Of a stretch of DNA of 64,000 nt, positions 15,388 through 59,312 are shown piece by piece. The DNA is from Sediminibacterium sp. Gen4 (GTDB taxonomy: Bacteria; Bacteroidota; Bacteroidia; Chitinophagales; Chitinophagaceae): NCBI GenBank assembly GCA_013391385.1, contig JACBFI010000003.1, positions 62,001 through 126,000 on the forward strand, written 5' to 3'. The notes under the pieces were generated by a model. That model was not told where the DNA came from. It ran no database searches and worked only from the letters and a program-made list of their open reading frames with translations. A program made the translations under genes and the position numbers. Numbering within the stretch: the stretch's first letter is position 1; every line of letters begins with the position of its first letter.

Positions 15388-18324
15388 TTATATAACTACA
15401 TTGATCATTTTACCTTTTACGAAGATGAGTTTCTTCAAAGGTTTTCCTTCCATCCATTTTTGTACCAGCTCATTGGCAAGAACGATCTCTTTTACCTGCT
15501 CCTCAGTAGCATCCAATGCAATGGAAATATTGGTACGTGTTTTTCCATTGATACTGATGGGATATTCTTTATTGGTTTCTGTTACATAAGATGCATTGAA
15601 CACAGGGAATGAAGCATCCAATACCGAACCTTCATTACCCAATTGCTTCCAAAGCTCCGCTGCAATATGTGGAGCATAAGGCGTTAAGAGGATCAATACA
15701 TCCTGAAGGATTTGTTTTTTATGACATTTCAAATCACTCAATTCATTCACACAAATCATAAAGCTGCTCACAGCAGTATTGAAACTATAACGCTCCGTAT
15801 CATCATCGATTTTTTTGATGGTGCGATGTAATACTTTTAACTCTTCAGCAGTCGGTTGCTCATCGTTCCAAATCTTTCCTTTGGTTTCATCAAAAAACAA
15901 ACGCCACAGTTTTTTCAAGAAACGATGCACCCCTTCAATCCCCTTGGTATCCCAGGGTTTACTTTGGTCTACCGGACCTAAGAACATTTCATACATGCGG
16001 AAAGTATCAGCACCAAATTTTTCCACCAATATATCAGGATTCACGGTGTTGAATTTTGATTTGGACATTTTTTCGATTTCTGTTCCGCATATATATTCAC
16101 CTTCTTCATTAAGAACGAATAATGCATCTGAATATCCAGATCTCCAACTCTTAAAAGCATCAATATCTAGAACAACACCGTCAACTCTATTAACATCAAC
16201 AGCTATTCGATCAACATTTAAGCTATGTATTTGGGTTATTCCTAATTCGGAAAGTAGAGATTTAATTTTAGTCTTGATATAGTTTTCAATATTTATATCA
16301 GAAACTTTGTCAATTAAATCTTTAGAGATAAAAATAAATGGCAAAGGTTTTCCCATCCTGGCGCTAGCAGCAAACTTCATATCCCATCTATACACAAACC
16401 TACTACTCCCCTGTATCATCCCCTGATTCAACAATTTCCTAAACGGTTCATCAAAACCAATATATCCTAAGTCATACAAAGCTTTGGTCCACATACGGCT
16501 GTACAATAAATGTCCCACCGCATGTTCTGTTCCACCGATATACAGATCCACCTGATTCCAATAATCACTTACTTTCTTCTCACAAAATGTCTCTTCATTA
16601 TTGGGATCCATATAGCGCAGGAAATACCAACTACTACCTGCATAACCGGGCATGGTATTGGTTTCGCGCACTGCAGGTTTGCCTTTGTAGGTTGTGTTCT
16701 TCCAATCATTCAAATTGGCCAGTGGGCCCTCTCCATCCGGGCCCGGACCATAACTTTCTACATCAGGTAACAAGAGTGGCAATTCTTTTTCATCTAAAGG
16801 ATAGGCAATACCCTCCTGCCAAACAATCGGGAAAGGCTCACCCCAATAACGTTGGCGACTAAAGGCAGCATCACGCATTTTGTAATTCACTTTGCGTTTG
16901 CCGATACCCATTTCTTCCAGTTTGGTGATGACCACTTCAATGGCATCACGCATTTTCATACCATTCAAAAATCCACTATTAGCCAGTACGGCATCTTTGG
17001 TAGGATTGGCATCTACTCCATCAAAAGCCTCACCAATGATATTCGTGATCGGAATATTGAAATGCTTCGCAAATTTGAAATCTCTTTCATCACCACAAGG
17101 AACCGCCATAATGGCTCCGGTTCCATATCCGGCAAGTACATACTCAGATATCCATACCGGAATTTCTCTTCCATCAAAAGGATTGATGGCATAAGCTCCC
17201 GTAAAACATCCCGTAATTTTTTTCTCCGCCTGACGCTCTCGATCACTCCTGCTTTTTACATAAGTGATATAAGCATCCACTGCTTCTTTCTGCTCAGCTG
17301 TCGTAATTTTTTCAATCAACTCATGCTCCGGCGCCACCACCATAAAGTCTACGCCGAAAATGGTATCAGGGCGGGTAGTGTAGACGAGGAGCTCCAAGCT
17401 GCTAGCTTCAGGCTGCAAGCTTGATTGTTCTGGCTTGTGGCTTGCAGCCTGCAGCTTGAAGCTGATCTCCGCTCCCGATGACTTACCAATCCAATTCGTT
17501 TGCATTTCTTTCATGGCTTCGCTGAACTCGATGGTGTCGAGTCCGCTGAGCAAACGATCTGCATATTCTGTGATACGCAAATACCATTGACGCAATTTCT
17601 TTTTAACAACAGGATGTCCGCCACGCTCACTCACTCCATTCACTACTTCATCATTGGCCAGTACTGTTCCCAAAGCTTCACACCAGTTTACTTCACCATA
17701 CCCACAAAAAGCAAGACGATAATCCATCAGAATATCTTGCTGTTCTTTTTCAGAAAAAGCTTTCCATGCTGCTGCTGTGAATTGAAGGGTGGGATTACCC
17801 GGACAAATATGATGGGTATTTCCTTCCTGTTCAAAAGAGGTAATCAGTTCCTGAATCGATACTGCTTTTTGCTGGTGACGATCATAGAAGCTATTAAACA
17901 GTTGAAGGAAAATCCATTGAGTCCATTTATAATAATCAGCATCACAGGTACGTACCTCTCGATCCCAGTCATAGCTGAATCCGATATTGTCGAGTTGTTT
18001 TCTGAAATTATCAATGTTCTGAGCAGTACTTTTTGCCGGGTGTACCCCATGCTCCAATGCATATTGCTCAGCCGGTAATCCAAACGCATCATAACCCATG
18101 GGATGCAGTACATTGAATCCTTTCAATCTTTTGAAACGACTTACAATATCAGAAGCGATATAACCCAAAGGGTGACCGACATGCAATCCGGCCCCACTCG
18201 GATAAGGAAACATATCCAGCACATAATATTTGGGCTTGGCACTGTTATTATTTACCTGGTAGGCTTTGGTATCCGTCCATTCTTTCTGCCATTTCTTTTC
18301 AATGTCCCTGAAATTGTATTCCAT
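15388..18324 (-). CDS. leuS: Leucyl-tRNA synthetase, with a repeat-derived in-frame insertion
   Basis: The 978-residue class I enzyme charges tRNA-Leu and edits mischarged products. The HIGH motif is HVGH (about 48-51, in PSGAGLHVGHPLGY), the KMSKS loop is at about 752-756 (EKMSKSKFNTVNPD), and the CP1 editing domain has TTRPDTIFG and GTGAIMAVPCGDERDFKFA. Two oddities were seen. Residues about 287-312 (QAASHKPEQSSLQPEASS and neighbours) are encoded by a copy of an intergenic repeat, just before the threonine-rich editing motif. Residues about 655-735, before KMSKS, form an AT-rich insertion longer than I expect from Bacteroides enzymes. The open frame and intact motifs indicate a working enzyme. 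Confidence 0.96.
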   Translation of the reverse strand: MEYNFRDIEKKWQKEWTDTKAYQVNNNSAKPKYYVLDMFPYPSGAGLHVGHPLGYIASDIVSRFKRLKGFNVLHPMGYDAFGLPAEQYALEHGVHPAKSTAQNIDNFRKQLDNIGFSYDWDREVRTCDADYYKWTQWIFLQLFNSFYDRHQQKAVSIQELITSFEQEGNTHHICPGNPTLQFTAAAWKAFSEKEQQDILMDYRLAFCGYGEVNWCEALGTVLANDEVVNGVSERGGHPVVKKKLRQWYLRITEYADRLLSGLDTIEFSEAMKEMQTNWIGKSSGAEISFKLQAASHKPEQSSLQPEASSLELLVYTTRPDTIFGVDFMVVAPEHELIEKITTAEQKEAVDAYITYVKSRSDRERQAEKKITGCFTGAYAINPFDGREIPVWISEYVLAGYGTGAIMAVPCGDERDFKFAKHFNIPITNIIGEAFDGVDANPTKDAVLANSGFLNGMKMRDAIEVVITKLEEMGIGKRKVNYKMRDAAFSRQRYWGEPFPIVWQEGIAYPLDEKELPLLLPDVESYGPGPDGEGPLANLNDWKNTTYKGKPAVRETNTMPGYAGSSWYFLRYMDPNNEETFCEKKVSDYWNQVDLYIGGTEHAVGHLLYSRMWTKALYDLGYIGFDEPFRKLLNQGMIQGSSRFVYRWDMKFAASARMGKPLPFIFISKDLIDKVSDINIENYIKTKIKSLLSELGITQIHSLNVDRIAVDVNRVDGVVLDIDAFKSWRSGYSDALFVLNEEGEYICGTEIEKMSKSKFNTVNPDILVEKFGADTFRMYEMFLGPVDQSKPWDTKGIEGVHRFLKKLWRLFFDETKGKIWNDEQPTAEELKVLHRTIKKIDDDTERYSFNTAVSSFMICVNELSDLKCHKKQILQDVLILLTPYAPHIAAELWKQLGNEGSVLDASFPVFNASYVTETNKEYPISINGKTRTNISIALDATEEQVKEIVLANELVQKWMEGKPLKKLIFVKGKMINVVI
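17388..17465. repeat. Intergenic-type repeat inserted in frame within leuS
   Basis: The segment has two inverted arms built from the words AAGCTGCAGGCTGCAAGCC and AGCTTGCAGCCTGAAGCT, the same vocabulary as the repeats at 36829-36855, 37250-37280 and 60208-60240. It encodes about 26 residues rich in A, S, E and Q in the CP1 domain. Confidence 0.75.
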
Positions 18325-18541: not shown

Positions 18542-18596
18542 TGACCGCTTCCCCTGCCCTTCTCCTGTGAGGAGAAGGGGATAAAAAATGTAAAGT

Positions 18597-19472
18597 ATGG
18601 TAGATAGTGCAAAATCTTCTTTAAAGCGTAGTAAACCGAATTATATCTACACCATTGTGGGTGTGGCTTTGGTCTTGTTGATCATGGGTATCATGGGCTG
18701 GTTTTTCCTCAATATTAATTCGGTAGGCAGTGCTTTTAAGGAAGACATTCGTATCAGCGCCTATTTACGGACTTTGAATAAGGATACCATTGGACAGATT
18801 CAGCAGCATATTGCTTCTCGCCCCTATACCAAAACGGTGACTTATGTAGATAAGAAAAAAGCACAGGAGATCTGGAATCGTGAGAACAATGAGGATTGGG
18901 CGAAGATTTTGGATGTGAACCCATTACCCGAGAGCATCGATTTTTATGCAAAAGCAGACTACGTAAATAGGGATAGCCTGAATAAAATATCCACAGAGTT
19001 ATTGGCTAAGTACGGAGATCAGATCACCGATATCCAGTACCCCCAAACATTGGTAGGTAATTTGAATGAGCGTGCTGCAAAGATTGGTTTGATATTTTTA
19101 GTGATTGCCATCATCCTCTGTATCATCGTGATCATTAGTATTGATAATACCATCCGTTTAGCAATGTTCAGTAACCGATTCCTGATCAAGACCATGCAGA
19201 TGGTTGGTGCTACTAGGGGTTTCATTGCTCGTCCTTTGAATATCAGGGCGGTGGTGAACGGACTGATCAGTTCCGGTATTGCCATTATTTTATTATTTAG
19301 CATCATCAGTTGGGCAGAGAGTCAGTTCCCACAGTTGAAAGCTATCCGTGATTGGAAATTGACTTTTATACTCTTTGGAGGCTTGATTATATTAGGCGTT
19401 GGAATTTCAGTCTATTCAACCCACCGAAGCGTATTGAAATATTTAAAAATGAAATTGGATGATCTTTATTAG
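18597..19472 (+). CDS. ftsX: Cell division protein FtsX-like permease
   Basis: A 291-residue membrane protein of the FtsX family. FtsX with the ATPase FtsE transmits cytoplasmic signals to cell-wall hydrolases during division. Membrane segments lie near 22-42, 165-190, 215-240 and 260-280, with a periplasmic domain (about 45-160) between the first two, the FtsX layout. The motif TMQMVGATRGFIARPLNIRA (about 200-219) is the conserved cytoplasmic loop. No ftsE lies next to it, which is usual in Bacteroidota. It is first in a plus-strand group with DUF3098 and uppP, all envelope proteins. Confidence 0.92.
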   Translation: MVDSAKSSLKRSKPNYIYTIVGVALVLLIMGIMGWFFLNINSVGSAFKEDIRISAYLRTLNKDTIGQIQQHIASRPYTKTVTYVDKKKAQEIWNRENNEDWAKILDVNPLPESIDFYAKADYVNRDSLNKISTELLAKYGDQITDIQYPQTLVGNLNERAAKIGLIFLVIAIILCIIVIISIDNTIRLAMFSNRFLIKTMQMVGATRGFIARPLNIRAVVNGLISSGIAIILLFSIISWAESQFPQLKAIRDWKLTFILFGGLIILGVGISVYSTHRSVLKYLKMKLDDLY

Positions 19473-19533
19473 TGAATAGTGAGTAGTCAGTAGTGAGTAA
19501 AAAATCAGATACTCACTACTCACCACTCACTTT
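19471..19533. repeat. Inverted repeat of AGTGAGTAG words after ftsX
   Basis: The arms 19471-19500 and 19510-19532 consist of AGTGAATAG, GTGAGTAG and AGTAGTGAGTA in one direction and their complements in the other. The repeat overlaps the ftsX stop codon. Confidence 0.75.
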
Positions 19534-21377: not shown

Positions 21378-21387
21378 GGGATGAAAA

Positions 21388-21520
21388 TAGTGAAAAGTGT
21401 CCATAGGACTCCTGTGGAGAAAGGACAAAGGTCAAAGTCAGGAACAAATATAGTGGGTGAATCATTTTTTACTGTTTTATGTACCGCTTTTCACCTTTCA
21501 CTTTTCACCTTTCACTTCTT
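21388..21520. repeat. Composite repeat between ruvC and a flippase-like gene
   Basis: It contains one copy of the 22-base motif GTCCnnAGGACTCCnnnGGAGA (21399-21420). Words of the AAGTG/AAAGGTCAAAG type lie around it, and an opposing run of CTTTTCACCTTTCAC lies at 21488-21520. The second arm falls inside the longest open frame of the next gene. Confidence 0.7.
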
Positions 21521-26116: not shown

Positions 26117-26235
26117 GCCATAGACTATGGACTATCGACCATGGACCATAGCTAATAGTCCATAGTCGATGGTAGGAAATATGCTTTTCACCTTTGACCT
26201 TTCTCCAAAGGAGTCCTATGGACACTTTTCACTTG
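26117..26235. repeat. Composite repeat: CCATAG/CTATGG palindrome plus the 22-base motif
   Basis: The first part (26117-26173) is built from TAGACTATGG, ACTATCGACCATGG and AATAGTCCATAGTC. The second part (26183-26235) has CTTTTCACCTTTGACC and an inverted copy of GTCCnnAGGACTCCnnnGGAGA (26202-26223). Confidence 0.75.
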
Positions 26236-26238
26236 TTT

Positions 26239-31195: not shown

Positions 31196-31891
31196 TTATT
31201 TAAAAACAATATCCGCAATTCCTTTATTGATAATATAGTTGGTATATACGATTTCAACTCTTCCTTTTTTATTTTTTAATTTTTGTTCCTCTGTGAGCGG
31301 CTTTTCATTGTCATCGAATTCCAATGTGAGTCCTTTAGGCAATTTATAATTCTTGGTATTGAAGCTAAAAGTCACTTTATCCGGCAAACCAAAATTTGAA
31401 AATTTACCATAGGTCATTTCAATCTCATAAGTACCATTTTCTTTGGTTGTAGTGACAGCTTTTCTAACCAAGAGATTGGCTTCATCTATATACATGGTGG
31501 TTAATACAACATCACTGTTTTCATTAACAGGAAGCATTTTTACTACTTTGGTCTTGACCCCAGCCACGGTTGCTTCTCCCGCTGCCAACGCTACAAATTC
31601 ATCAGTAGTAACAATTGAGTTCATATTTACAGACACACCACCTTTAGGAAGCAGTGAGATACCTCCATCTTTTCGCAAACGAAACTTATTGGGTTTTTTA
31701 AAATAAATTTTCACTTTCCCTACCGGTGCTTTGATAAAAGCTACATCTGTTTTCATTCTGCCATCCGCTTCGTAATCATTTACCTGATCTAGCTTTGCTT
31801 TTACTTTCATTACAAGTGGGGTCATATCCTGAGCGGAGGAAGTGAAAAGTGAAAAGTGAAAAGTGAAAAGCAGTATGATAATAGTTCGCAT
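31196..31891 (-). CDS. LolA-like outer-membrane lipoprotein-sorting protein with repeat-encoded signal peptide
   Basis: A 231-residue periplasmic protein. Residues 1-21 are a signal peptide (MRTIIILLFTFHFSLFTSSAQ) whose core is translated from four tandem AAGTGAAA-type units. The mature part has the strand-rich pattern of the LolA/LolB-like group (VKIYFKKPNKFRLRKDGGIS, about 55-74; VLTTMYIDEANLLVRKAVTT). It lies 9 bases after an ABC-2 permease gene and could carry lipids or lipoproteins for that exporter, which is inference. Confidence 0.78.
   Translation of the reverse strand: MRTIIILLFTFHFSLFTSSAQDMTPLVMKVKAKLDQVNDYEADGRMKTDVAFIKAPVGKVKIYFKKPNKFRLRKDGGISLLPKGGVSVNMNSIVTTDEFVALAAGEATVAGVKTKVVKMLPVNENSDVVLTTMYIDEANLLVRKAVTTTKENGTYEIEMTYGKFSNFGLPDKVTFSFNTKNYKLPKGLTLEFDDNEKPLTEEQKLKNKKGRVEIVYTNYIINKGIADIVFK
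31843..31872. repeat. Four tandem AAGTGAAA units forming the signal-peptide core
   Basis: On the plus strand the units read AGTGAAA repeated four times. On the coding strand they read TTTTCACTTTTCAC and encode LLFTFHFSLFT. Confidence 0.85.
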
Positions 31892-33726: not shown

Positions 33727-33780
33727 AGGTGAAAAGTGTCCTTAGGACTCCGTTGGAGAAATGTGAAAAATGAGAGAAAA
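33727..33780. repeat. AAGTG repeat with a copy of the 22-base motif
   Basis: GAAGGTGAAAAGT leads into GTCCnnAGGACTCCnnnGGAGA (33738-33759), then ATGTGAAAAATGAGAG. Confidence 0.75.
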
Positions 33781-36738: not shown

Positions 36739-36855
36739 CTGTCTGCCGACAGGCAGGTGTGATTTCTTGTCCGAAGGACTCCTTCGGAGATTTTATTTTT
36801 TGACTTTCGACTTTTGACTTTTCACTTGAAGCCAGCAGCCTGCAGCCTGTAGCTC
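36739..36855. repeat. Composite repeat cluster: several families in one gap
   Basis: It contains CTGTCTGCCGACAGGCAGG (36739-36757, an internal palindrome), a copy of GTCCnnAGGACTCCnnnGGAGA (36769-36790), TGACTTTCGACTTTTGAC and then AGCAGCCTGCAGCCTGTAGC (about 36835-36853), the vocabulary also found inside leuS. Confidence 0.75.
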
Positions 36856-37129: not shown

Positions 37130-37280
37130 AAGTTTGATTTTTAGATCTGCGATTTCTTGATCTTTGATTTTTTGATTTATGATTACTTGTCCGAAGGACT
37201 CCTTCGGAGATCTTTTTTTGACTTTTCACTTTTGACTTTTCACTTTTTCTTGTGGCTTGTAGCCTGAAACTTGTAGCCTA
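37130..37280. repeat. Composite repeat cluster reaching the TonB receptor stop codon
   Basis: GATTTTTAGATCTGCGATTT and related words (37137-37182), a copy of the 22-base motif (37189-37210), TGACTTTTCACTTTTGAC, and CTTGTGGCTTGTAGCCTG (37250-37268). The receptor gene stop (37278-37280) lies in the same run. Confidence 0.75.
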
Positions 37281-48027: not shown

Positions 48028-48095
48028 GACAGTTGCCAAAGGTAACAACAAAGGCTTGGCAGTGTTTACCGATGCTGTAATTTTTGGAGAGCCCG

Positions 48096-48292
48096 GTCTA
48101 TGGTCGATGGTCCATAGTCCATGGCGTATGGTTCATAGCGTATAGTCCATAGTCCATGTCCTGTAATAAATACTTTGTTCTTTACTTATACGAATACAAG
48201 CGACGCTTGTACATACCCATTTTCCTACCATATGCTATGGACCATGGACTATACGCTATTGACCATCGACCATGGACCATAAGCCACAGACT
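48096..48292. repeat. Two CCATAG/CTATGG arms flanking a 70-base spacer
   Basis: Left arm 48096-48158: words TCTATGGTCGATGG, TCCATAGTCCATGGCG and GTATAGTCCATAGTCCATG. Right arm 48228-48292: ATGCTATGGACCATGG, ACTATACGC and GACCATCGACCATGGACC. The spacer has no gene. It lies between the divergent ABC exporter and rel genes. Confidence 0.8.
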
Positions 48293-48314
48293 ATCCGTAT
48301 ATTCGTAGTCAGAT

Positions 48315-50573
48315 ATGGAGCAAGCGAAAGATACGACTGCGGAGGTGGTGTTACCTCGTTATAACCTGAACCCTGATCAGGAAAAAAATGAAATATTAAG
48401 GCATTATCGCGCCCTTTTGAGAAGCTTGAAATCAAAACTTAAGAAAGGCGATAAGGAATTGGTACGTCATGCATTTCAAATGGCTGCCGATGCGCATAAA
48501 ACCATGCGTAGAAAGAGTGGTGAGCCTTATATCCTTCATCCCATAGCCGTAGCCATGATTTGTGTGGAAGAAATCGGACTCGGGGTAAGAAGTACCATTT
48601 GTGCATTATTACATGATACCGTTGAAGACACAGATATTTCACTAGAAGATATTGAAAGGGAGTTCGGAACAGAGATCGCAAGAATTGTGGATGGTCTGAC
48701 CAAGATCTCCACCGTAATGGACACCAATACTTCTCAACAGGCAGAGAATTTTAAAAAAATCCTTTTAACACTTACAGATGATCCACGTGTGATCCTGATC
48801 AAACTGGCAGACCGCTTACACAATATGCGTACGCTGGATCACATGAAAAGTGAAAAACAGTTGAAGATCGCCTCTGAAACGGTTTGGGTGTATGCTCCAT
48901 TGGCACACCGGATGGGATTGTACAATATCAAGACCGAGTTGGAAGACCTGTCCATGAAATATATGGAGCCGGAAGCGTATCGGGATATTGCTAAAAAACT
49001 CGCAGAAACCAAACGCGAAAGAACCCGTTACATCAATGAATTTATTCGACCCATAAAAGAAAAAATGCAGGCAGCCAATTTCAATTTCGAAATTTATGGT
49101 CGCCCAAAAAGTATTCATTCCATTTGGAACAAGATCAAAAAAAAGGGTGTCGCATTTGAAGAAGTATATGATCTCTTCGCTATTCGTGTGATACTGGATT
49201 CGCCTACAGAAAAAGAAAAAGAGGATTGCTGGAAAGTATACTCAATGATCACTGATGAGTATATGCCTTCGCCTGAACGTTTACGTGATTGGTTGAGTAA
49301 TCCTAAAAGTAATGGATATGAAGCTCTTCATACAACTGTGATGGGACCTCAAGGTAAATGGGTAGAAGTACAGATTCGTACCAAACGCATGAATGAGATT
49401 GCAGAAAAAGGTTTGGCGGCCCATTACAAATACAAAGAAGGTAATAGCGATGAAGATAGATTTGATAAATGGTTTGGTCAGATTAGGGAAGTATTGAGTA
49501 CACAGGATACGGAAGGGGTTGACTTCTTACAGGATTTCAAAACATCTTTTCTAGCCGAAGAAATTTATGTGTATACTCCAAAAGGTGAAGTGAAAATGTT
49601 GCCAATGGGAAGTACGGCGTTGGATTTCGCTTTCTCCATTCACTCAGCCATCGGTAGTAAATGTATTGGCGCCAAAGTGCATCATAAATTGGTGCCTATC
49701 AGCCATAAATTAAGAAGTGGAGACCAGATCGAGATCATTACCAGTAATAAACAAAAACCATCCGAAGACTGGCTGGGCTTTGTAGTAACGGCGAAGGCAA
49801 GAAATAAAATCAAAGACGCTTTAAGAGAAGAAAAAAGAAAAGTAGCGGAAGATGGTAAATACCTGCTCCAAAGAAAACTGGAAAGCATGGGCGCAGCGTA
49901 TAGCCAATACAATATCGAAGAACTGGTACAATTTTATAAACTTCCTTCATCACTGGATCTGCATTATAGAATTGCTACCAAAGTTCTTGATCTGAAAGAG
50001 CTGAAAGATTTCCAGGTATTGGGTGATAAAATAGAGATTCCCAAACCCAAACCTGTAATCCAGGAAATCATCACGGATCCTGTACAAAAAACATATAGTA
50101 AAAAAGAGTCTGAGCTGATCATTTTCGGGGAAAGCAGTGACAAGATCATGTACACCCTCGCCAAATGCTGTAATCCTATACCGGGAGATGACGTATTTGG
50201 TTTTGTGAGTACCGGTAAAGGGCTGATAATTCACCGAACCGGTTGTCCAAATGCAGCACAACTACTCGCGAATTATGGCCATAGGGTAGTAAAAACCAAG
50301 TGGGCAAAGAACAAAGAAATTTCATTCCTCACCGGACTGAAGATCATTGGGTTGGATGATGTGGGCGTAGTCAATAAAATCACCAATGTAATCAGTGGAG
50401 ATCTCAGAATTAATATTGCCGGTTTAACCATTGAATCCAGCGAGGGCTTATTCGAAGGAACGATCAAAATATTTGTACACGATAAAGAGGAATTGGAAGA
50501 ATTGGTTGAAAGACTCAAATCACTCAACGGTATTCAACGGGTGGATCGATTTGATACGGAAAATGAGAAGTGA
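48315..50573 (+). CDS. (p)ppGpp synthetase/hydrolase (SpoT/RelA type)
   Basis: A 752-residue enzyme making and hydrolysing the stringent-response alarmone. Order: HD hydrolase (about 40-200; HD in ALLHDTVEDTD and KLADRLHNMRTLD), synthetase (about 240-360; RPKSIHSIWNKIK, NGYEALHTTV), TGS (about 400-460; IYVYTPKGEVKMLPMGSTAL), a middle domain with CCNPIPGDDV, and a C-terminal ACT domain. The intact HD site suggests a bifunctional Rel. A repeat lies just after the stop codon. Confidence 0.96.
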   Translation: MEQAKDTTAEVVLPRYNLNPDQEKNEILRHYRALLRSLKSKLKKGDKELVRHAFQMAADAHKTMRRKSGEPYILHPIAVAMICVEEIGLGVRSTICALLHDTVEDTDISLEDIEREFGTEIARIVDGLTKISTVMDTNTSQQAENFKKILLTLTDDPRVILIKLADRLHNMRTLDHMKSEKQLKIASETVWVYAPLAHRMGLYNIKTELEDLSMKYMEPEAYRDIAKKLAETKRERTRYINEFIRPIKEKMQAANFNFEIYGRPKSIHSIWNKIKKKGVAFEEVYDLFAIRVILDSPTEKEKEDCWKVYSMITDEYMPSPERLRDWLSNPKSNGYEALHTTVMGPQGKWVEVQIRTKRMNEIAEKGLAAHYKYKEGNSDEDRFDKWFGQIREVLSTQDTEGVDFLQDFKTSFLAEEIYVYTPKGEVKMLPMGSTALDFAFSIHSAIGSKCIGAKVHHKLVPISHKLRSGDQIEIITSNKQKPSEDWLGFVVTAKARNKIKDALREEKRKVAEDGKYLLQRKLESMGAAYSQYNIEELVQFYKLPSSLDLHYRIATKVLDLKELKDFQVLGDKIEIPKPKPVIQEIITDPVQKTYSKKESELIIFGESSDKIMYTLAKCCNPIPGDDVFGFVSTGKGLIIHRTGCPNAAQLLANYGHRVVKTKWAKNKEISFLTGLKIIGLDDVGVVNKITNVISGDLRINIAGLTIESSEGLFEGTIKIFVHDKEELEELVERLKSLNGIQRVDRFDTENEK

Positions 50574-50652
50574 CAAAAGTGAGAAAGGTGAAAGGTGAAA
50601 AGTGAAAGGAAATGTGCAAAACCTTTTCACTTTTCACCTTTCACCTTTCACC
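50565..50652. repeat. AAGTGAAAGG/CTTTTCACC inverted repeat between rel and purA
   Basis: Arms 50577-50610 (AAGTGAGAAAGGTGAAAGG, TGAAAAGTGAAAGG) and 50622-50651 (CTTTTCACTTTTCACC, TTTCACCTTTCACCC). It reaches the rel stop codon. Confidence 0.8.
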
Positions 50653-50687
50653 CAAAAATATTCTTCCCAAAACCCCCAACTATCTCC

Positions 50688-57165: not shown

Positions 57166-57198
57166 CAAAGGTAAGGATGGGGGCGGGATTCTCCAAAA
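57166..57198 (-). promoter_or_regulatory. Promoter of rplS
   Basis: Minus strand: -33 TTTTG (57194-57198), 20-base spacing, -7 TACCTTTG (57166-57173). This is the best match to the Bacteroidota consensus in the window. Confidence 0.75.
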
Positions 57199-57206
57199 GT
57201 TTTTGG

Positions 57207-57238
57207 GCTGTGAGCTGTGAGCTACGAGCTATGAGCTT
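57207..57238. repeat. GAGCTGTGAGCTACGAGC repeat after the four-helix-bundle gene
   Basis: GCTGTGAGCTGTGAGC, TACGAGC and TATGAGCTT run to the stop codon of the next gene. A matching inverted run lies at 57715-57750 on the other side of that gene. Confidence 0.75.
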
Positions 57239-57591
57239 TACTTGTTTAACTTATCTATAAAGCTAATAAGCATTTTTTGTTCTTCATCAATTTTATAAAG
57301 TATTGATTTTCTGATGTTTATTAAGCCGAATCCAAGCAATTCTGATAAGAGAATATGCGTTTCAAGTTCAAAACAAGACCCTAAAGAAATTTGCAAAAAA
57401 TGAGCATATTCTCGATCACTTTTTCGACTGCTACCCTCTGCAATATTCGCCGGAATTGAGCTTGCAGACCTTGTTATTTGACTGACTAAACCATATTTTT
57501 CTTCTTTTGGAAACTCTCGAATCAGTTCATAACATAATTGGGCAATTTCCATTCCTTGCTGCCATACCTTGAGACGTTTAAAGTCTTTCAT
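57238..57591 (-). CDS. Four-helix-bundle protein (23S rRNA intervening-sequence family)
   Basis: A 117-residue helical protein: DFKRLKVWQQGMEIAQLCYE (about 3-22), GLVSQITRSASSIPANIAEG (about 34-53, the family signature), SDREYAHFLQISLGSCFELE. Homologues are encoded in intervening sequences of 23S rRNA genes and as Avd in diversity-generating retroelements, but here no rRNA or reverse transcriptase is near. The gene is bracketed by inverted copies of an intergenic repeat and interrupts the rplS-rny interval. Function unknown. Confidence 0.85.
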   Translation of the reverse strand: MKDFKRLKVWQQGMEIAQLCYELIREFPKEEKYGLVSQITRSASSIPANIAEGSSRKSDREYAHFLQISLGSCFELETHILLSELLGFGLINIRKSILYKIDEEQKMLISFIDKLNK

Positions 57592-57714: not shown

Positions 57715-57750
57715 AAGCTCATAGCTCGAGGCTCGCAGCTCATAGCTTAT
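57715..57750. repeat. GAGC-type repeat overlapping the rny stop codon
   Basis: CAAGCTCATAGCTCGAGGC and AGCTCATAGC run into the rny TAA (57747-57749). It is the inverse of the run at 57207-57238. Confidence 0.75.
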
Positions 57751-59312
57751 CTAGCTACATTCACCGCTCTCTTCTCCCTAATCACAGTCACCTTAATCTG
57801 ACCCGGGTACGTCATTTCTGTTTGGATTTTTTGGGCGATTTCAAAGCTGAGTTTATCGCTTTCGCCGTCGGTTACTTTTTCAGCTTCTACGATGACGCGT
57901 AATTCTCTTCCGGCTTGAATAGCATAAGCTTTTTCTACGCCCTGATAGGCTAGAGCCAGATTTTCCAGGTCTTTAATTCTTTGTAAATATTGCTGCATAA
58001 TCTCTCTACGCGCACCCGGACGCGCACCACTGATGGCATCACAGGCTTGTACGATCGGAGAAATCACATATAACATTTCCATTTCATCATGGTGAGCACC
58101 AATCGCATTCACCACCGCCGGATTTTCACCATACTTCTCTGCTAATTTAGCCCCGAGTAATGCGTGGCTCAATTCGGTTTCTTCATCAGGAACTTTTCCG
58201 ATATCATGCAATAATCCGGCACGCTTGGCCAACTTAGGGTTCATGCCTAATTCAGCTGCCATGATACCACAAAGATTAGCTGTTTCACGGCTATGCATCA
58301 ACAGGTTTTGTCCGTATGAAGAACGGAACCTCATTTTACCAACAATACGGATCAATTCTTTGTGCAATCCATGAATACCCATTTCGATCACCGTACGCTC
58401 TCCGATCTCCATTACCTGCTCCTCTAACTGGCGTCGGGTTTTTTCTACCACTTCTTCAATACGTGCAGGGTGTATACGTCCATCTGCAACCAGTCTCTGT
58501 AAACTCAGTCTGGCAATCTCTCTTCTCAATGGGTCGAATGAAGAAAGGATAATCGCTTCCGGAGTGTCATCCACAATCAAATCAACACCGGTAGCAGCTT
58601 CAATGGCACGGATATTTCTACCTTCTCTACCAATGATTTGACCTTTGATCTCATCTGTTTCCAGGTTGAATACGGTAACCGTATTTTCAATGGTTTGCTC
58701 TGCAGCAGTACGCTGAATAGTTTGGATAACAATCTTACGCGCTTCCTTATTCGCCTTCTGCTTCGCATCTTCAATGATCTCTTGTTGTAAAGTAAGCGCT
58801 CGGGTTTGTGCTTCCTGACGCAGACTCTCCACCAATTGTGCCCTTGCTTCTTCTGCACTGAGACCGGCAATTTTTTCGAGTCTACGGATATGTTCTTCCT
58901 GATGCTTCTCTAACTCTGTTCGCTTCAGATTCACCACTTCGATTTGACGATTGAGGTTGTCCTTGATCGCTTCATTTTCCTTGATCTGCTTGTCTAAAGC
59001 AGCTTCTTTTTGATTGATCGAGATTTCTTTCTGCTTCGCACGATTTTCTGATTCGCTGATTTTACGATTGCGATCGTTCACTTCACGCTCATGCTCAGCT
59101 TTTAACTGCACAAAGCGCTCTTTTGCTTCCAGCTGTTTTTCTTTTTTAATGGTTTCAGCTCTTAGCTCCGCTTCTTTCAGGATATTTTGTGCCTGTAGAT
59201 TGGCTTCGTCAATTTGTTTTTGGGTGTTTTTGGCAAAGATGAATTTACCTGCTATCAACCCCACAATGAGTGCCACAGGTGCGGCTATGATCAAGACAAG
59301 CGTCTGGTCCAT
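57747..59312 (-). CDS. rny: Ribonuclease Y
   Basis: A 521-residue membrane-anchored endoribonuclease that starts mRNA decay. Order: membrane segment (about 4-24), long coiled coil (about 28-190), KH domain ([20 protein letters not shown], about 225-245) and HD domain with [20 protein letters not shown] (about 365-384). The length is normal. It lies next to zapA as in many Bacteroidota. Confidence 0.96.

Follow-up and report, generated by a model that had tools for sequence, protein, structure and literature searches.

The leucyl-tRNA synthetase (LeuRS) gene leuS lies on the minus strand of the window, by which we mean the whole 64-kb stretch of DNA that was analyzed (source genome G000, 3.52 Mb). 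An array of 7-nt units sits inside its reading frame, and further arrays of this kind occur elsewhere in the window. The features concerned are listed below, with the strand where one was assigned.

15388..18324, minus: leuS, leucyl-tRNA synthetase, 978 aa; open frame, matches to solved LeuRS (best E 7.9e-188)
17353..17379, minus: editing-domain motif TTRPDTIFG, just downstream of the array; read from the translation
17390..17467, minus: in-frame hairpin-forming array of degenerate 7-nt units, LeuRS residues about 286-311; lag-7 segment, fold, genome matches
17391..17422: AGCTTGN-type units forming the 3' arm of the hairpin, as read on the coding strand; repeat family D6, best inverted partner 21/24
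17436..17466: CAAGCTN-type units forming the 5' arm of the hairpin, as read on the coding strand; repeat family D5
19459..19511: array of GTGAGTA units, located at the ORF 18597-19472 stop codon; near-identical letters at the end of locus L031
20702..20822: TCGGATT-type intergenic hairpin; lag-7 segment, inverted partner
31829..31881, minus: TTTTCAC units encoding the start of ORF 31196-31891; lag-7 segment in the ORF, hydrophobic and signal-peptide-like by eye
48088..48293: inverted arrays between genes, built of ATRGTCC units; lag-7 segments, inverted partners
50564..50661: GTGAAAR-unit intergenic hairpin; inverted partner 24/24

The leuS array and its closest relatives

A sequence-only reading of this DNA had placed a repeat of intergenic type at 17388-17465, in frame in an essential gene. 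The repeat is real: the lag-7 segment at 17390-17467 lies at most 2 nt from that position, and the frame, with zero internal stops across its 978 residues, runs straight into TTRPDTIFG. Residues T316-T321, F323, and G324 of this motif are invariant, and I322 nearly so, in 25 aligned LeuRS. On the coding strand the first arm of the array reads AGCTTCA AGCTGCA GGCTGCA AGCCACA AGCC..., a short loop follows, and the second arm reads AGCTTGC AGCCTGA AGCTAGC AGCTTGG AGCT; the two arms are inverted copies of each other. The proposed kinship with intergenic repeats was borne out as well, since intergenic copies in other parts of the window match the arms at 66-87% and GCTTGCAGCCTGCAGCTT, with two or fewer mismatches, has 58 matches in its own genome (reversed control, 0). 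Folded as single-stranded DNA, the plus strand of 17370-17480 gave -26.7 kcal/mol (z = -2.88), a value equaled in 2 of 200 shuffles. For the LeuRS loops of G000, its sister G061, and G062, the hairpins reached -44.8, -47.1, and -34.7 kcal/mol, respectively, calculated without shuffles. A separate hairpin, CCCCTGCCCTTCTCC...GGAGAAGGGG, stands at about 18548-18583 between leuS and the next gene, and it resembles a non-heptad hairpin in the LeuRS loop of L086.

The proposed insertion of about 26 residues stood only in part. That figure is right for the span of the array but not for the net gain: before TTRPD, the GAE..VY stretch counts 32 residues in G000 and 18 in the short form seen most often, a difference of 14. 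The length of this loop varies among LeuRS generally, and a solved structure (7nua) has a segment longer than 18 residues at the same site. The insertion is also not private to the source species: the stretch has 31 residues in the sister LeuRS (L031, genome G061), and the G000-G061 grouping received an SH-aLRT of 100 in a LeuRS tree from which the loop was left out. The array therefore entered before the G000/G061 split, or entered twice. Most relatives examined have no period-7 array (69 of the 84 LeuRS loops scored), but the sister has the insert. In named records, the nearest LeuRS relatives of the source genome are from Chitinophagaceae and Sediminibacterium. One record titled Comamonas (L050) contains a Chitinophagaceae-like LeuRS at 72% identity and is probably a mislabeled bin.

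CP1 is the editing domain of LeuRS. Exposure of the loop is no more than suggested by two AlphaFold models, of the whole LeuRS and of the domain alone. In each model the insert lies between two strands and the pLDDT in the middle of the insert is below 50; confidence is low in both (mean pLDDT 58.6 and 56.1, respectively). The site is presumably a permissive surface loop.

Heptad hairpins in the source genome

To count such arrays in G000 we used a 464-kb sample, consisting of the window and 400 kb in 20 stretches. At lag 7 there were 92 segments compared to 3 in a second-order Markov control; the other lags tabulated gave 2 to 16, and the multiples 14 and 21 gave 49 and 26. The 92 segments merge into 80 elements, 12 of them inside ORFs, although gene calls were greedy longest ORFs rather than annotation and several of the 12 lie in short ORFs of doubtful status or in what are likely 5' extensions. 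The words are many (AGCTTGN, ATRGTCC, GTGAAAR, GTGAGTA, TAGGTAC, TCGGATT, and others). An inverted partner with at least 18/24 matches within 150 nt was found for 54/92 segments, compared to 5/92 at random, hence mostly coding, positions of the same sequences. An arm-register test of these partners was set aside because picking the best register biases the outcome. No common sequence beyond the 7-nt period was seen among the elements, and Rfam at gathering scores gave 0 matches in the window. The class is defined by period and palindrome, not by sequence.

The elements favor the ends of genes. Per kb of intergenic DNA there are 1.05 between convergent genes, 1.44 between codirectional genes, and 0.50 between divergent genes, and 50/92 segments start 30 nt or less from a gene 3' end, compared to 19% of random intergenic points. 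Intrinsic terminators are likewise 3' stem-loops at gene ends, and at one site a sister species has a terminator-like stem-loop in place of a heptad hairpin. The heptad hairpins differ from terminators in their repeated units, their long loops, and, by eye, the frequent lack of a T tract. Judging from their position, the hairpins at gene 3' ends probably act as terminators or mRNA 3' stem-loops.

Two simpler rules for the units were tried and dropped. A universal unit N-A-G-XXXX was suggested by AG in 76/92 consensus units of G000 (58 expected from letter shuffling), but five other genomes had no clear AG excess and there was no fixed variable position. Nor does period 7 appear to provide backup stops in all frames, since at the 50 gene-end segments a stop occurred in 27 sense and 22 antisense units. 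Words free of stops occur in 11/15 of the period-7 LeuRS loops described below, versus 43/92 and 53/92 of the G000 sample units, one figure for each strand; if coding loops filter for such words at all, the filter is weak.

Several other arrangements were seen in the window. The first ~20 residues of ORF 31196-31891 (minus strand) are largely spelled by TTTTCAC heptads. Another repeat family, AGGACTCC/GGAGTCC, occurs at 21384-21436, 26186-26238, and 33729-33773, and also at 36760-36799 and 37180-37219; several copies are bordered by GTGAAAR or TTTTCAC-type units. Inverted GAGCTNN arms at 57196-57246 and 57715-57751 are ~470 nt apart, which is wider than usual.

Two other protein-coding genes carry heptads in a loop. 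An AAA_28 protein (Pfam) of G000, which we take to be NadR-like, has ATGGTCC units in a loop that is nearly equal in length in G047, G063, G075, and G010, where no comparable array is present; the gene had no match in the sister G061. A rhodanese-domain protein, presumably SelU/MnmH, has an insert common to G000 and G061, and in G062 an independent AGTC-type hairpin occupies the same loop.

The LeuRS loop in other species

The sequence-only reading could not see that many further species have different heptad arrays in this loop. From 110 LeuRS loci we obtained 101 distinct sequences and scored 84; the remaining 17 have no loop state because both anchor motifs and a length of at least 840 aa were required. 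With a loop counted as positive at 17 or more of 28 matches at lag 7, period 7 was present in 15/84 loops, that of the source species included. Each of nine other lags (4-6 and 8-13) gave 0 or 1 of 84. When codons were resampled synonymously, keeping the peptide, 2.0 of 84 loops were positive at lag 7 on average, and never more than 8. The 15 positive loops require at least 12 changes on the LeuRS tree. Stricter thresholds left 12 and 8 positive loops, needing 10 and 7 changes, and a looser one gave 20, needing 16.

Across the 101 distinct leuS genes, 19 lag-7 segments were found. They are confined to two places, the TTRPD loop in 12 genes and, in 6 genes, a region that lies 114-165 residues ahead of TTRPD. 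The second region (residues about 145-209; L058, L065, L068, L085, L089, and L098) is presumably a permissive surface loop too. Lag 9 gave 25 segments across the same genes, none of them in the 84 scored loops.

The words in the loop are diverse. GAGCTNC occurs in L031 and, distant on the tree, in L089; GTGAGTC occurs in L033 and L114; and AATCGTG, CAATCTT, AAAATTC, AAATTTG, and GGGAGCC occur in L108, L079, L049, L063, and L104, respectively. Several loop arrays are one-armed by eye, and those of L049 and L063, like the G000 NadR-like gene, show zero net gain in length over the comparison loops.

To compare loop words with their hosts we counted seven of them across 20 genomes; the words of L058, L063, and L068 (3 of the 15 loops) were not among the seven. 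Five of the seven peak in a genome whose own loop bears them. CAATCTT has 40 matches in G031, the genome of its loop, and 0 in the 19 others. GCTTGN has 267 in G000, 55 in G061, and 6 or fewer elsewhere, while GAGCTN has 192 in G061, 97 in G000, 31 in G047, 24 in G062 (another genome with this loop word), and 9 or fewer elsewhere. The top three genomes for GTGAGTN are G047 (569), G063 (400), and G075 (156), and all three loops carry the word; its reversed control was high in several genomes (172 versus 569 in G047, for example) because the reversal is itself another heptad of similar wording. AAAATTC has 43 matches in G065 and 15 in the next genome.

Other words did not fit their genomes. The CTCAC units in the loops of L057 and L059 come close to GTGAGTN, but the genomes concerned, G069 and G074, have only 6 and 10 matches to it and rank eleventh and tenth. 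For AATCGTN, G064 is only fifth once matches in its own loop are removed. GGAGCCN (L104) has 4 matches in G068, 3 of them clustered at the presumed loop, and gives no support because those 3 are probably the loop itself.

In rank permutations of 12 genome-word pairs, the observed fit was reached in 0 of 100,000 draws, and in 30 of 100,000 when only the worst-placed genome per word was used; the first 10 pairs (L057 and L059 left out) gave 0 and 2 of 100,000. The genome-word pairs behind all four values are not independent because some of the genomes are close kin and the words were picked from the loops. Most of the loop words tested, though not every one, tend to follow the host genome.

Species also differ in heptad density. 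Lag-7 segments per 100 kb ranged from 18.5 in G000 down to 0 in G011, G017, and G037; three apparent segments in G037 were runs of N and were discarded. Nine genomes with a loop array exceeded nine without (one-sided Mann-Whitney p = 0.005), with overlapping ranges, samples of 40-400 kb, genomes mostly picked knowing the loop state, and kinship ignored. G034 and G048, whose loop state was unset, were left out of this comparison; the G048 loop was later seen to be of the short kind.

Comparison of close relatives shows how arrays change. Between the G000 and G061 LeuRS arrays, with the register set by eye, the same unit position differs in 4/4 left units and the complementary position differs in 3/4 right units. 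Each of the two loops holds whichever of the two words is locally commoner (267 v 97 in G000; 192 v 55 in G061). Rewriting is not uniform, however, because the element at 19459-19511 beside leuS, at the end of what we take to be ftsX, has kept nearly the same word in both sisters.

G047 and G063 were compared over about 134 kb of aligned DNA (89-90% identity). One intergenic hairpin has TTTGTGG units in one species and TTTGGGG units in the other, in both arms. Among 20 rows, 4 had the array in both species, 7 in G047 only, 1 in G063 only, and 8 had no orthologous site. The sole G063-only row is coding sequence and was discounted as an element. Two of the seven G047-only rows are one locus, and at least four have a shorter or decayed version in G063, below threshold. 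At one site where G047 has a heptad hairpin, G063 instead has an ordinary stem-loop followed by T. Orthologous sites are thus mostly altered versions and rarely cleanly empty, and no shared ends were seen.

Origin and significance of the arrays

We favor, with moderate confidence, copying within the genome as the source of the leuS array. The segment would be a captured member of the genome-wide class of heptad-phased hairpins: short, degenerate 7-nt arrays, often with an inverted partner array nearby, mostly intergenic, with the copies at gene 3' ends probably acting as stem-loops. The likeliest route of copying would be template switching, or ectopic gene conversion, between arrays that are short and alike; array wording would therefore tend to follow the host repertoire and could change array-wide. 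A copy landing in frame in a tolerant surface loop, such as that of LeuRS before TTRPD, would survive, presumably neutral for the enzyme, and would later decay or be rewritten. No copying enzyme was found. We counted against copying the words that misfit their genomes (GGAGCCN, AATCGTN, and those of L057 and L059), and it could explain the loops of L049, L063, and the G000 NadR-like gene, which lack net gain, only as replacement. Shared words could also reflect a mutational bias, or a binding protein, that the arrays have in common.

A bolder reading, which we hold only tentatively, is that heptads are written without regard to the word. The 7-nt step and the palindrome would be enforced and arrays would be rewritten in both arms to the genome's current word. 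This would reach even the coding loops of essential genes, with a species-specific 7-nt dialect legible in LeuRS.

Another possibility is a local origin, in which replication slippage in 7-nt steps and snap-back copying build the array from resident codons with no donor. The loop arrays of L049 and L063 without net length gain, the NadR-like heptads of G000 where four other genomes have a loop of near-equal length with no comparable array, and GGAGCCN, which has no other array of the same word in its genome, are consistent with it. However, this is unlikely, as it would not predict words common to dozens of arrays in one genome and missing elsewhere (CAATCTT, 40 v 0 in 19), nor the outcome of the rank permutations. 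Because words match host genomes, copying from a genomic pool is favored over purely local slippage.

It could be speculated that selection keeps a genome-specific word, in the gene too, through a trans-acting protein or an RNA-level role such as a leuS mRNA hairpin. The stable hairpins of the G000, G061, and G062 loops, the gene-end bias, and the site where an ordinary stem-loop stands in for a sister's heptad hairpin would fit such a role; we consider it improbable given that many different words coexist in one genome, 69/84 LeuRS loops have no array, and several loop arrays have a single arm.

We also considered a mobile element with a palindromic structure, like those of Rickettsia or like REPs or MITEs. 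REP elements, beside which the label BIME is used, are high-copy palindromes outside genes and are associated with RAYT (Y1) transposases. Such an element would account for many interspersed palindromic copies, some in frame in genes. Y1 transposases were present in 11/16 genomes and absent from G017, G037, and G011 (0 sampled period-7 segments) and G034 (1). On the other hand, G067 has heptads and no Y1 match, Rfam gave no match in the window, and the 15 of 22 Y1 places examined (2.7-3.2 kb each) held only 3 scattered heptad arrays, none of them flanking a Y1 gene as in REP/RAYT systems. On this flanking sequence RAYT was set aside as the mover of heptads. A classical mobile element is distinctly improbable, because no sequence beyond the period was seen to be shared by the elements and heptads do not flank the Y1 transposases at the places examined. 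By eye, several Y1 genes (among L238-L252) adjoin other palindromes (CGGGCTTTAGCCCG-like), seemingly a separate repeat system.

The parallel drawn earlier with Rickettsia holds in part. Rickettsia palindromic elements are palindromic, occur in many copies, and lie in frame inside unrelated genes (PMC10969869). The G000 leuS array shares the palindrome and the open frame. Their families, however, encode a conserved peptide, whereas the 15 period-7 LeuRS loops carry many words and peptides, with units that vary between species and form no single family. Since only the 7-nt phase and the palindrome persist, while the sequence does not, the leuS array is not of Rickettsia type.

Chance, simple low complexity, or an ancestral conserved loop is very improbable: loop length does vary among LeuRS, lag 9 outnumbers lag 7 across the gene (25 versus 19 segments), and synonymous resampling peaked at 8/84, but in the loop lag 9 gave 0/84 versus 15/84 for lag 7, and words match genomes.

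Arrays of heptamer repeats are also known, under the label STRR. Direct TAACTGA repeats occur in Beggiatoaceae, Cyanobacteria, and some Bacteroidetes, mostly intergenic with some inside ORFs, and other heptamer arrays are reported from Bacteroidetes intergenic regions (MacGregor 2015, PMC4679880). In BOGUAY there are 169 direct TAACTGA sets and one inverted set, mostly just upstream of start codons, and the main text of that paper contains none of the terms leucyl, synthetase, and palindrom (PMC4679880). The heptad elements are likewise tandem 7-nt units, mostly intergenic; those arrays are direct with a fixed word, whereas here there are many words and 54/92 segments have an inverted partner. 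Among the titles and abstract openings listed by searches of open PMC, we found no report of heptad hairpins with genome-specific words or in LeuRS.

Bacterial interspersed repeats are usually defined by shared sequence. Here period and fold are shared while sequence is free and genome-specific, and family searches therefore miss these hairpins. The LeuRS loop offers a natural series of arrays entering, decaying, and rewording under the constraint of a reading frame, so that the spread of arrays is directly testable. Non-coding repeats can in this way become protein sequence, including the signal-peptide-like segment of ORF 31196-31891. Heptad hairpins, mostly intergenic, thus occur repeatedly in frame in one loop of an essential enzyme, often in the wording of their own genome.
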